From contig NZ_CP134398.1 of assembly GCF_002968335.2 (NCBI RefSeq), positions 3,720,001 to 3,784,000 of the forward strand: DNA of 64,000 nucleotides, read 5' to 3'. The position numbers and the translations under genes are program-made. Of the stretch, positions 13,128 to 16,633 are shown in pieces. The notes under the pieces were generated by a model. The model ran no database searches, was not told where the DNA came from, and worked only from the letters and a program-made list of their open reading frames with translations. The stretch is from Mycobacterium sp. ITM-2016-00316 (lineage in GTDB: Bacteria; Actinomycetota; Actinomycetes; Mycobacteriales; Mycobacteriaceae). Positions within the stretch are counted from its first letter, which is position 1. Every line of letters starts with the position of its first letter.

Positions 13128-13664
13128 CTACCAGCAGCGCTTCAGGCCGCCGGGCTCGCAGACCAGGGGGTACTCGTTGACCGGGATCGGCAGCGGATCG
13201 CGGAAGCTGATGGAGAACGGCTTGGTGTCCAGCGTTGCCGGCAGCCCGCACACCTGGCTGTGCGACATGGTGCGGGTGCCGGTCATGGTCCTGGTGTCGA
13301 ACTTGAAGGTCTCGTCGATCGGCGCCGTACCACCGTCGGGGCAGGTGAGCCCGTCCACTGTTCTCACGCTGTAGGCCCACACGCCGCCGGTGAGCTTCGC
13401 GTCGCCACCCCGGGCCACCGCCGACGGGGTCGAAGCGACGTGCAGGATGCAGGCGACCGGATCCCGGATCTCGGCCCGCAGGTCACCCACCACCGGCACG
13501 CAGACCGGGAAGATCGTCCAGTTCGCGTCCGGCAACCCCTCCTGCTTATAGGTGTAGTTGCCCTCCAGCACCTGCTGCTGCGGGTTCGCCTGGGCCGGTG
13601 CGGCAAAGCCGACCATGCCCAGGGTGAGCAGCACGACACTGAACAACCCGCGAAGTATGTTCAC
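13128..13664 (-). CDS. Secreted protein, function unknown
   Basis: A 178-residue protein taken from GTG 13664 (VNILRGLFSVVLL); upstream frame would run into the SDR gene. A classical signal peptide ends near AAPAQA, with predicted cleavage at residue about 27. The mature part holds six cysteines (PVCVP, ACILH, LTCPDG, QVCGL, LVCEPG, KRCW), likely three disulfides, as in small mycobacterial secreted proteins. No enzymatic motif. It is separated from the reductase gene by 28 bases on the same strand and could share its transcript. Confidence 0.75.
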   Translation of the reverse strand: MNILRGLFSVVLLTLGMVGFAAPAQANPQQQVLEGNYTYKQEGLPDANWTIFPVCVPVVGDLRAEIRDPVACILHVASTPSAVARGGDAKLTGGVWAYSVRTVDGLTCPDGGTAPIDETFKFDTRTMTGTRTMSHSQVCGLPATLDTKPFSISFRDPLPIPVNEYPLVCEPGGLKRCW

Positions 13665-13728
13665 ACCTCGCAGTATTGCAGCACGCCTCTGGCACGTCCG
13701 CGGTTTGCCCCGTGAGAGAGTCACGAAC

Positions 13729-14469
13729 ATGACCTCATTGGACGGAAAAGTGGCATTGGTGACGGGCGCGTCGGCCGGGCTCGGCGCGGCGACGGCAAAG
13801 CTGTTCGCCGAACGCGGCGCGACGGTGTACGGGGTGGCCCGTGACGGTGACCGGATGGCCGACGTGTTCGCCGAGGTGCCCGGCGGCCGGTTCGGGTCCT
13901 ATGACATCGGCACCGCCGACGCGTGCAAGCAGGCCGTCGAAGACTGCGTCGCGGCGTTCGGGCGCATCGATGTGCTGGCCAATGTGGCGGGCTTCCACCA
14001 GATGCGGCGCACCGCGTCGGTGACCGACGCGGACTGGGATCTCGATCTGGCGGTCAACCTCAACGGGCCGTTCTATCTGAGCCGGGCCGCGCTGCCGCAT
14101 CTGCTGGAATCCGGCGGCAACATCGTCAACGTCTCCTCGGTGGCCGGCGTCGAGGGCGAGGTGTATTCGGCGGGCTACTGCGCGGCCAAGCACGGACTGA
14201 TCGGGTTGACCCGCGCGATGGCCGTCGAGTTCACCAAGGAGACGCTCCGGGTCAACGCGGTGTGCCCGGGCGGGATGCTGACCGCGCAGGTCACCGAGTT
14301 CTCCGCACCGGAGGACGCCGACTGGGAGCTGATCATGCGGATCGCCGCCCCGCGCGGAATGATGGATCCGGTCGATGTCGCGAAGACCATCGCGTTCCTG
14401 GCCAGCGATGACGCGGCCGCGATCCACGGCGCGGTGTACCGCGTCGACAACGGGAAGGGCGCCGACTGA
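13729..14469 (+). CDS. Short-chain dehydrogenase/reductase (SDR)
   Basis: A 246-residue classical SDR from ATG 13729. Cofactor motif TGASAGLGAATA at residues about 11-22, NVAGFH (NNAG equivalent), and catalytic Ser in 'VNVSSVAG' with Tyr-x3-Lys in YCAAK. C-terminal 'DNGKGAD' lies close to the usual SDR end. Cytosolic oxidoreductase of an alcohol/ketone substrate not identified here. Its TGA overlaps the ATG of the Ser/Cys lattice protein (TGATG), so the two are made together, an unusual partner for an SDR. Confidence 0.85.
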   Translation: MTSLDGKVALVTGASAGLGAATAKLFAERGATVYGVARDGDRMADVFAEVPGGRFGSYDIGTADACKQAVEDCVAAFGRIDVLANVAGFHQMRRTASVTDADWDLDLAVNLNGPFYLSRAALPHLLESGGNIVNVSSVAGVEGEVYSAGYCAAKHGLIGLTRAMAVEFTKETLRVNAVCPGGMLTAQVTEFSAPEDADWELIMRIAAPRGMMDPVDVAKTIAFLASDDAAAIHGAVYRVDNGKGAD

Positions 14470-14891
14470 TGAACGAGATCCGCTCCGAGACAGGCTCGGT
14501 CGGCACCGACTCTGTCGCGACCGTGGGCAGCATCGCGGTGCAGGGTTCCATCGCCACCGTCGGCAGTGCGGCGGTGGCCGGTTCGATCGGCACCGTGGGC
14601 AGCGCCGCGGTCGCCGGGTCGATCGCCACCGTGCAAAGCGCCGGTGTCGCCGGCTCGATCGGCACCGGCGGCAGCGCCGGGGTCGCCGGTGGTTTCGCCG
14701 TGGTGGGCAGCGCGTTCCTGCTGCTGTGCGCGGCGCTCGTCGGGTGCGTGGCCTGCATCGGATGCGTGGCCTGCCAGCAGTGCCGGGCCTGCATCGGCTG
14801 CGTGGCCTGCACCGACTGTGTGGGTTGCGTCGGATGCGTCAACTGCTCGGGCCTGCGCGGGGCCGTCGGCCTGCGCAATGTGCACGCCTGA
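14469..14891 (+). CDS. Unusual Ser/Gly hexapeptide-repeat and Cys-every-third-residue protein
   Basis: A 140-residue protein of unknown family, coupled to the SDR by a TGATG overlap. Residues 14-80 are ten hexapeptides of the type G-S-[IA]-[AG]-[TV]-x, with Ser at 15, 21, 27 and so on to 69 and again at 81, alternating GSI.TV and GSA.VA units. Residues 75-92 are hydrophobic (FAVVGSAFLLLCAALVG), a possible membrane segment. From residue 93 a Cys occurs every third position to 126 (12 in a row: CVA, CIG, CVA, CQQ, CRA ...), plus Cys87. All Ser and Cys positions are divisible by three, so the two parts share one register. This could be a solenoid or beta-roll, or a metal- or disulfide-rich rod; no function is claimed. 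The frame is supported by coupling and by regular peptide repeats with varied codons. Confidence 0.75.
   Translation: MNEIRSETGSVGTDSVATVGSIAVQGSIATVGSAAVAGSIGTVGSAAVAGSIATVQSAGVAGSIGTGGSAGVAGGFAVVGSAFLLLCAALVGCVACIGCVACQQCRACIGCVACTDCVGCVGCVNCSGLRGAVGLRNVHA
14511..14711 (+). repeat. 18-base-period coding repeat (hexapeptide units)
   Basis: Encodes the G-S-I/A-x-x-x hexapeptides, residues 15-81 of the lattice protein. A 36-base superperiod reflects alternation of GSIxTV and GSAxVA units. Confidence 0.8.
14745..14852 (+). repeat. 9-base-period coding repeat (Cys-x-x triplets)
   Basis: Twelve consecutive Cys-x-x codon triplets, residues 93-128. TGC dominates, with one TGT near 14817. Confidence 0.85.
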
Positions 14892-14992: not shown

Positions 14993-16633
14993 TCAGTGCG
15001 GTCTGGCCGCCGCCGGAGTCGAGGGAGCCTCCTCCGACGCCAGCCGCAACCGGTAGTCGCCGGGCAGCGGACCCTCACGCGGGGTGTCCAGGCCCGGGTA
15101 CTGCTGGGTGCGGTGGATCTCGAATTGCCGTTCGCCAGCGGCGTTCTGCTTCCACACGCCCCAGGCCGGGGTCACGCCGTCGAGCAGCACCCGGCGCTCG
15201 CCGTAGCGTGCGTCGTCACCGACGTCGACGATGCGCTGCACCCGGAAGGGCTCGTACACCGCGTCCGAGTAGCGCACCTGCACCGGCACGTCGTCATAGC
15301 GGAACAGCGGCGGCGGGGGCGGCGGCGCAAAGTTCCCGATGTTCGCGATGTTCGGGATGAAGCCGCCGCCGAAGAAGCTGCCCACCGCCACGCCCACCGC
15401 GGTGCTGACCACCGTGTTGACGGTGTTGAGCACCACCGCGGTGAAGCTGTAGGCCGCAAGGTCGGCCACGTACATGACCATCCGCTGCAACGGCGGGATC
15501 GTCACGACCCGCGGCCGGTTCTCGTACTCGTAGACGATCCGCACCGGATCCCGGTAGGGGTTGACGATCATGGGCCGGTAGAACTCGTCGTACTGCACCC
15601 AATCCGGGCTCCACTGGCGCACCCGGTTATCCCAGTCGCGCTGCTCGGCGCGCAGTTCGCGCTGGTCGTCCCGCAACTCGCGCTGGTCTTCCCGCAGTTG
15701 ACGGCGCTCCTCGTCGAGGCGGTCCCGCTCATTCGACACGCCGACCAACGACGACAGCTGCGCGAGCTCCTCAAGCTTGGCCGGCTCCGGGTTGACCTCC
15801 ACCGGCTTGGCGCTGGCGGCGAGCTGGACGTCGGCGACCGGGGCGTCCAGAACCTCGGGCTTGAGCGTCTTGGTGACGCGCGCGGCCTGCTGCTCGACCG
15901 CCGATGTCTCGGAAACCCCTTCCTCGGCAGAGGTTTCAGCGGATGTCTCGGCGGAGGTTTCAGCGGACGTCTCGGTGGGGGTCGCGCTGGATTCCGGTGC
16001 CTCGTCCGCGGTCCGGGGCACGTCCGTCCTGGACGGCGCCTCGCTGGACGGTGCGGGCCCGGCGGACGCGGACGAGGGTGCCGGGCTCGGGGCAGCCGAG
16101 CTGGACGGCGCCGGCCGCGATGACGGTGTGTCCTCTGGTTCGGCGGTCGGCGCCGACGGGGACGTGGTGACCTGCGTGCTGGGCCGCTTGGTGCTGGTGG
16201 TCGTCGGCTGCTCGACCGCGGGCTGCGGCTTGGGTGCCGGCGCCGGTGCGGGCTCGGGCTGCGGGGCCACGGTCTCGGGGGCGACGGTCGCCCGCGGCGT
16301 CTCGACCGGCGCCACGGTCTGCACCGGCGCCTGCGTCACGACGGGTGCCTCGGTCTGGGCCGGTGCCTGGGTGGCCGCGGGTGCCTGGGTCTGCGCCGGC
16401 GCCTCAGCGGTCACGGCCGGTTCGACGTACGGCGACTCCTCCTGGCTGCCGCGTCCCTGGCCGCCCGATCCGCCGGACTCCTGCGGAGCCTCCGCCGTCG
16501 TCGTCGCCACGATCTCGGGTTCGGCGGCCGCCGGCGCCACGCCGGCGGTGAGTGCGGTCAGCGATATCACCACGGTGGAGGCCAATCCGGCCACCATGCT
16601 TCGCCTCAGGAATTCCTCACGCGCTGCACCCAT
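14993..16633 (-). CDS. Exported Pro/Thr/Ser-rich surface protein; C-terminal anchor lost by frameshift
   Basis: A 546-residue protein from ATG 16633. Signal peptide to about residue 37 (GVAPAAAEP). Residues 40-240 are low-complexity Pro/Ala/Thr/Ser/Gln-rich, with TSAE repeated four times. Residues about 300-330 form a charged coiled segment (LREDQRELRDDQREL). A globular C-terminal region follows, with 'PPPPPPLFRYDD'. The frame ends at TGA 14993-14995. In the next frame, from about 15035 down to a TAG at 14910-14912, there is a Gly-rich linker, one transmembrane helix (IIAAVACAVLSLGAVGAAGL) and a basic tail MGRRRQV, exactly what should end a surface-anchored protein. One missing base near 15029-15035 would restore a 574-residue protein. 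The product is probably wall or membrane associated; its role is unknown. Confidence 0.8.
   Translation of the reverse strand: MGAAREEFLRRSMVAGLASTVVISLTALTAGVAPAAAEPEIVATTTAEAPQESGGSGGQGRGSQEESPYVEPAVTAEAPAQTQAPAATQAPAQTEAPVVTQAPVQTVAPVETPRATVAPETVAPQPEPAPAPAPKPQPAVEQPTTTSTKRPSTQVTTSPSAPTAEPEDTPSSRPAPSSSAAPSPAPSSASAGPAPSSEAPSRTDVPRTADEAPESSATPTETSAETSAETSAETSAEEGVSETSAVEQQAARVTKTLKPEVLDAPVADVQLAASAKPVEVNPEPAKLEELAQLSSLVGVSNERDRLDEERRQLREDQRELRDDQRELRAEQRDWDNRVRQWSPDWVQYDEFYRPMIVNPYRDPVRIVYEYENRPRVVTIPPLQRMVMYVADLAAYSFTAVVLNTVNTVVSTAVGVAVGSFFGGGFIPNIANIGNFAPPPPPPLFRYDDVPVQVRYSDAVYEPFRVQRIVDVGDDARYGERRVLLDGVTPAWGVWKQNAAGERQFEIHRTQQYPGLDTPREGPLPGDYRLRLASEEAPSTPAAARPH

Follow-up and report, generated by a model that had tools for sequence, protein, structure and literature searches.

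Locus and residue lattice of the Cys-x-x protein

The window analysed here is a stretch of 64,000 nucleotides from Mycobacterium sp. ITM-2016-00316 (contig NZ_CP134398.1, positions 3,720,001 to 3,784,000 of the forward strand), whose genome of 5.99 Mb lies on a single contig and is 99.99% complete. At window positions 14469–14891 (+), a gene running from ATG to TGA encodes a protein of 140 residues in which Ser-led hexads pass into an uninterrupted array of Cys-x-x triplets; the open reading frame, its homologues and its ratio of non-synonymous to synonymous substitutions (dN/dS) support the assignment. Directly upstream, at 13729–14469 (+), lies the gene of a 246-residue oxidoreductase of the short-chain dehydrogenase/reductase (SDR) family (adh_short_C2/adh_short, Pfam E = 2.4e-52). 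The stop codon of the SDR gene and the ATG of the Cys-x-x gene overlap as TGATG, the last base of TGA being common to both.

Residues 15–86 (14511–14726, +) are built from 12-residue repeats of two hexads each (GS-I/A-A/G-T/V-V/A), as indicated by the period of 12 and by the AlphaFold2 (AF2) model, and are predicted to form a solenoid with a Ser/Thr/Val core. Residues 93–126 (14745–14846, +) comprise twelve Cys-x-x units, equivalent to three coils of 12 residues, each having four lattice Cys, and include the most conserved segment of the protein, D-C-V-G-C-V-G-C at residues 116–123 (14814–14837, +). The C-terminal residues 127–140 (14847–14888, +), SGLRGAVGLRNVHA, constitute a conserved cap, in which L-A-L-V occupies lattice positions, so that the lattice runs on beyond the Cys block.

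The Ser residues are situated at positions 15, 21, 27, ..., 69 and 81, with Gly at 75, and the Cys residues at 87 and then at 93, 96, ..., 126, every Cys position being divisible by three. The first-pass annotation had placed the Ser hexads and the Cys triplets in one register, and its frame, coordinates and lattice all hold, apart from the Gly in place of Ser 75. Across 74 homologues, the Ser and Cys share the same phase modulo 6 in 70. Furthermore, the run of 12 Cys-x-x units is longer than any that shuffling yields: among 20,000 shuffled versions of the whole protein the maximum is 5 units, and among 20,000 of the 50-residue tail it is 8. Over all six frames of the window, the second-longest run reaches 4 units. 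Reading every third residue, the core string is typically S-T-S-L or S-T-S-M, followed by twelve Cys and L-A-L-V. There are 42 distinct core strings among the 74 homologues, the differences lying mainly in the flanks; that of the window protein itself starts with S-L-C-L.

The hexapeptide unit claimed in the first-pass annotation is replaced by a period of 12 in the Ser part, formed by two hexads that differ at Thr/Val. In the alignment of the 74 homologues (A1), the Ser part has identity autocorrelations of 0.571 and 0.499 at lags 12 and 24, compared with 0.357 and 0.352 at lags 6 and 18, and of 882 pairs of successive hexads, 786 alternate between Thr and Val at the fourth residue. The period of the Cys block is likewise 12. 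For lags 12, 24, 9, 3 and 6, the hydropathy of its outward residues correlates with r = 0.79, 0.71, 0.38, 0.36 and 0.01, values that rest on few column pairs (n = 15, 7, 17, 21 and 19, respectively), and by plain residue identity lags 9 and 12 are alike (0.300 versus 0.306).

A beta-solenoid, which the first-pass annotation had put forward for structure prediction, is the fold that AF2 returns, with confidence in the Cys part only. For the full-length protein, blocks of the predicted local distance difference test (pLDDT) score 83–88 in the Cys part and 38–68 for residues 11–90; for the Cys part modelled alone they score 84–91. Strands of about three residues, one every six, are predicted in residues 15–86, and the Cys part shows one bridge per third residue in both runs, the inputs of which overlap. 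No helix of four or more residues is present in either model.

Homologues, conservation and viral arrays

The frame at 14469–14891 is a real, conserved gene under purifying selection. Against 13 homologues, dN/dS ranges from 0.12 to 0.51, and most variation falls at third codon positions. The first-pass annotation had called for a search for homologues, and these were found both in the genus and in several other actinobacteria. Matches occur in 137 of 297 genomes of the genus at E = 1e-3, mostly one each, and in 121 of the 275 good-quality genomes. The nearest named homologue, in Mycolicibacterium frederiksbergense LB 501T, has 93% protein identity, and its SDR 99%. A draw of relatives, with the window's own genome among them, yields matches in 25 of 61, both matches outside the genus being weak; phylum-wide, 11 of 396 genomes match at 1e-6 (three of those near the cut-off), and order-wide, with the tail as query, 21 of 298. 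A contig scan gave 96 qualifying loci, 80 of which were kept, in Mycobacterium/Mycolicibacterium, Williamsia, Gordonia, Pseudonocardia, Actinomycetospora, Geodermatophilus and Solirubrobacterales. In addition, a large protein database holds 11 relatives found by sequence and at least 32 found by profile.

Within the family, the Cys block is held at a nearly fixed size. In 54 of the 74 homologues the longest unbroken stretch of Cys-x-x numbers 12 units, in 10 it has 11 and in 7 it has 9, with stretches of 13, 10 and 8 in one each, whereas the number of Ser-led hexads varies from 4 to 16 (10 to 16 in 70 of 74). The Cys coils are therefore more tightly constrained than the rod formed by the hexads. 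The total of lattice Cys is 12 in 36 homologues, 13 in 18, 11 in 11, 10 in 6, 14 in 2 and 8 in one; an odd number (11 or 13) is thus found in 29 of 74, which disfavours obligatory disulfide pairing. Off-lattice Cys appear in just 8 of 74 homologues, two inside the block, two beyond it and five before it, one homologue being counted twice.

Each of the twelve Cys positions is occupied by Cys in 62 to 74 of the 74 homologues. CVGCVGC is invariant in A1, and likewise in the alignment of the 74 tails (A2), except for one Val at 90% or more. D116 reaches 90% or more in both A1 and A2, as do L129 and R130 of the cap in A1. The segment D-C-V-G-C-V-G-C is found in 74 of 74 when the alignment is anchored on the motif itself, an anchor that contained D-C-x-[GA]-C-x-[GA]-C, so that those columns are partly conserved by construction; A1 is free of that effect.

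Two proteins of divergent layout were also observed. In P0032, with 113 residues, an unrelated N-terminal segment without Ser hexads precedes the Cys block, and Pfam gives no match. P0029, with 224 residues, continues well past the cap, and Pfam gives a sub-threshold collagen match only.

Family libraries offer little for the window protein, which has no Pfam match and, in NCBIfam, a sub-threshold collagen-adhesin match at most (E = 0.047). Among the A1 members, collagen PF01391 is matched by 6 of 74 (best E = 9.5e-7) and SSP160 by 2 of 74; the PF01391 matches are attributed here to Gly/Ala content. Collagen itself, with Gly at each third residue, was rejected, the lattice being Ser/Thr/Val and Cys instead. 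With the A2 tails, PHROG 15341 is matched by 74 of 74 (best E = 6.2e-8), and three other PHROGs by one or two each. The PDB sequence search with A1 stays at chance level (best E = 0.052 and 0.077), and the fold searches gave no significant match among the families listed there. No description of the family or of the phage Cys-x-x arrays was found in the titles and abstract openings of the open-access papers listed, which in two cases were 20 of 537 and 12 of 31 matches. A solenoid with an unusual all-Cys core, as predicted here, thus appears to be new to the libraries and literature searched.

The claim of the first-pass annotation that runs of Cys-x-x units are very rare is wrong in general, since viral contigs hold many, with up to 53 consecutive units. 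Scanning IMG/VR for nine Cys-x-x units gave at least 120 stretches, many of which are low-complexity DNA or out-of-frame repeats, and 20 of which have no open frame holding the run. Several viral frames look coding, with varied x residues and runs of 53, 47, 46, 35, 31, 29 and 25 units (L288, L305, L263, L320, L326, L265 and L295); several start with NGNRW...EEA...L. All ten sampled viral proteins match PHROG 15341, and none matches Pfam. The one phage protein compared with the PDB, L270, matches the beetle antifreeze structure 1EZG at E = 0.028, but its first match, at E = 6e-14, is to a LIM-domain protein with repeats, so that the match to 1EZG is partly one of composition. The depositors of Campylobacter phage CPt10 had remarked on weak PF02420 matches in a relative of another sampled viral protein.

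A profile scan of the viral contigs returned nine loci, by eye phage-type arrays or probable DNA repeats, none with Ser hexads. As for the C-terminal cap, compared in the 20 viral arrays, out of 122, that passed the filter, LR follows within 14 residues of the array in 5 of 20 against 2.1 expected (p = 0.036), two of the five being near relatives, and GLR follows in 1 of 20 (p = 0.13). Searches by tblastn gave no match to the protein in plasmids and named phages at E = 1e-3 and no match to the tail in named phages at E = 10, both weak negatives with the low-complexity filter on.

Genomic neighbourhood and the SDR gene

The neighbourhood was compared over 130 distinct loci, L027 and L028 having been dropped as spurious; seven with less than 1 kb on a side were set aside, leaving 123 testable loci with at least 1 kb on both sides. 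An SDR orthologue (74–100% identity, tblastn) adjoins the gene in 51 of these 123 and is co-directional with it in every case; it lies immediately upstream in 29 loci and immediately downstream in 22, the downstream gaps measuring 0–55 nucleotides. In the other 72 loci neither position is taken by the SDR gene. Further contexts include succinate dehydrogenase with a gene of the acyl-CoA dehydrogenase family, a 2-oxoacid dehydrogenase acyltransferase with lipoyl synthase, and acyl-CoA dehydrogenase.

Over the 297 genomes of the genus, an SDR match at E = 1e-80 shows no association with the gene (108 genomes with both, 29 with the gene only, 124 with the SDR only and 36 with neither; p = 0.89). 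A close SDR orthologue, at E = 1e-118, is associated with it (87 both, 50 gene only, 64 SDR only, 96 neither), with an odds ratio of 2.6 and p = 7e-5, a value that treats species as independent, without kinship correction, and depends on a cut-off chosen afterwards from the table of E-values. The coupling to the SDR gene that the first-pass annotation had emphasised is thus upheld as a recurrent adjacency in both gene orders and given up as an obligate partnership, since the close SDR is missing from 50 of 137 carriers and the locus of the SDR also occurs without the gene. The association is modest, and from this recurrent but optional adjacency it follows that the gene is a movable accessory gene.

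In L227, the matches to the SDR gene and to a neighbour, which we take to be a Usp-like gene, are about 20 nucleotides apart, and in L126, L127 and L132 the Cys-x-x gene stands between them. L126, L127 and L132 against L227 represent occupied and empty forms of one site and make a clean case in which to study gene gain or loss. Twenty SDR loci without the gene, or with the gene located elsewhere, held no convincing copy, the best being 37% identical (E = 1e-8) in repetitive sequence. Whether or not the gene is present, the SDR often ends an oligopeptide ABC-transporter cluster (SBP_bac_5, BPD_transp_1, ABC_tran/oligo_HPY). A SigF-type promoter was found upstream in 1 of 126 cases, against an average of 2.5 in shuffles.

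Some side observations concern single loci and neighbours. In the Mycobacterium metagenome-assembled genome WOFB04 (L068), no SDR is found by tblastn, the upstream DNA resembles decayed SDR remnants and the Cys-x-x gene is open; at this locus it may persist without its SDR neighbour. In the window, 14993–16633 (-) encodes a 546-residue protein with a Pro/Thr/Ser-rich N-terminal half and no Pfam match; related genes occur in 14 of 132 clustered loci, directly downstream of the Cys-x-x gene in 12. On the other flank, 13128–13730 (-), divergent from the SDR gene, encodes a 200-residue protein that by eye looks secreted, also without Pfam match, and its relatives (15 loci) recur near the SDR, including loci without the Cys-x-x gene.

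Possible role of the Cys coils and comparison with known systems

The lattice and the AF2 model together suggest a small, probably cytosolic beta-solenoid with coils of 12 residues, of which every third, four per coil, would point inward. The N-terminal coils, variable in number and with Ser-Thr-Ser-Val cores, would serve as a rod, and the rod would end in three coils with Cys at all four inward positions, closed by the Leu-Ala-Leu-Val cap. No export signal was seen by eye in the window protein. The twelve stacked thiols could constitute a pre-organised thiolate core for soft metals, most likely Cu(I) or Zn(II), acting like a copper storage protein, with its rigid Cys-lined scaffold, on a beta-solenoid frame. 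The protein is tentatively predicted to be a thiol-lined scaffold and perhaps a soft-metal store, a reading that is possible but short of probable. A further reading, in which the three coils would enclose an inner channel lined by twelve thiols, four to each storey, and holding a short column of metal ions as a thiolate wire or a polynuclear Cu–S or Fe–S core, is rather unlikely.

Almost equal in standing to metal binding is a structural role, where the Cys would be small, slightly hydrophobic packing residues, reduced or in a disulfide ladder, that form a rigid end of the rod, with the function located outside, for example self-assembly or docking via the flat Val/Ala faces and C-V-G-C-V-G-C. 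Several observations weigh against a metal store or for such a core: no metal genes were seen among the neighbours scanned; the outward positions are hydrophobic, which hints at lateral assembly or at contact with membrane or lipid; the excerpted account of the beetle antifreeze model assumes inner-core C2–C8 disulfides; and the phage arrays of up to 53 units suggest that Cys can be plain core filler. On the opposite side, Ser, Thr and Val already fill the N-terminal coils, so that Cys is unneeded for packing, the Cys block is far more constant in length than the rod, and a cytosolic setting would keep the thiols reduced. A thiol site is favoured over a disulfide ladder because the block length is restrained, off-lattice Cys are near absent in the block, CVGCVGC and the cap are conserved and Cys counts are often odd.

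The protein might also serve the adjacent SDR enzyme in a redox or thiol partnership, as a substrate carrier, thiol relay or regulator. The co-directional adjacency, the overlapping TGATG of the window and the association of the close orthologue speak for this role, which is nevertheless improbable, given the carriers without that orthologue, the 64 of 151 genomes that have the orthologue and lack the gene, the loss of association at the looser cut-off and the 72 loci in other contexts. Cys-x-x repeats resemble the heterocycloanthracin family (TIGR03601), and 3 of the 74 tails touch this NCBIfam model (best E = 0.0075); a precursor of a thiazole-modified peptide with cyclised Cys is nonetheless very improbable, since the window's own genome contains no YcaO cyclodehydratase match (5 of 14 control genomes do) and the protein has a long conserved N-terminal part and cap. 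An ice-binding protein is equally hard to credit, as the protein has no TCT/TxT rank, the Thr being flanked by Ala, Val, Gly and Ile, and none of the 74 members matches PF02420 at E = 0.01.

If the inner channel with its column of metal ions were true, the protein would be a metal-storing or electron-handling beta-solenoid of a kind not known, paralleled by the longer phage Cys-x-x arrays. The predicted fold suggests a simple solenoid code, with an inward residue at each third position and 12 residues per coil, that allows a change of core residues from Ser/Thr/Val to Cys. The gene is conserved, has no family model and is carried by nearly half of the sampled genomes of the genus; it offers a testable case of a possibly metal-holding beta-solenoid and draws attention to the phage Cys-x-x proteins.

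Among the known systems, the hyperactive beetle antifreeze protein TmAFP has a coil plan like the one predicted here. We take its S5 and A11, and hence all four positions of the coil, to point inward. The 12-residue tandem repeat is common to TmAFP and to both the Ser part and the Cys part of the mycobacterial protein. The consensus of TmAFP (PDB 1EZG/1L1I; Pfam PF02420), as given in excerpts of its description, places C2, S5, C8 and A11 three residues apart, whereas the mycobacterial protein has Cys at all four lattice positions in three coils and Ser/Thr/Val elsewhere, has a hydrophobic outside and lacks the ice-binding rank. The likeness is an analogy, no homology being shown. In the case of PHROG 15341, the shared trait is the uninterrupted Cys-x-x triplet; in a search of the window's own genome the profile matches at E = 6.1e-6. 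However, the window protein covers profile positions 42–83 of 276, and Cys content may drive the match. The phage arrays carry mostly polar x residues, lack Ser hexads and have another N-terminal segment (NGNRW...EEA...L), which is unmatched in the window protein, whereas in 7 of 10 phage proteins the best-matching stretch begins at profile positions 1–13.

The coil of a left-handed beta-helix has 18 residues, formed by three hexads; this fold was rejected for the Ser part, lag 18 being no better than lag 6 and Thr and Val alternating. Pentapeptide-repeat and hexapeptide (left-handed beta-helix) solenoids are likewise repeat-coded beta-solenoids, but the period here is 12, not 5/20 or 6/18; excerpts from PMC8145042 describe four pentapeptides per coil for the pentapeptide-repeat proteins. 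Bacterial metallothioneins such as SmtA and MymT are also small and Cys-rich, whereas the mycobacterial protein has a regular lattice, a predicted repeat fold and no family match; metallothioneins, according to the excerpted text of PMC7558416, fold upon Cu binding. The same excerpts describe Csp1 as a rigid apo-fold whose Cys-lined core takes up 13 Cu(I). Csp1 and Csp3 are four-helix bundles, in contrast to the mycobacterial protein, for which no helix is predicted; what the two would have in common is the concept, as portrayed there, of a rigid scaffold that is folded beforehand and lined with Cys inside.
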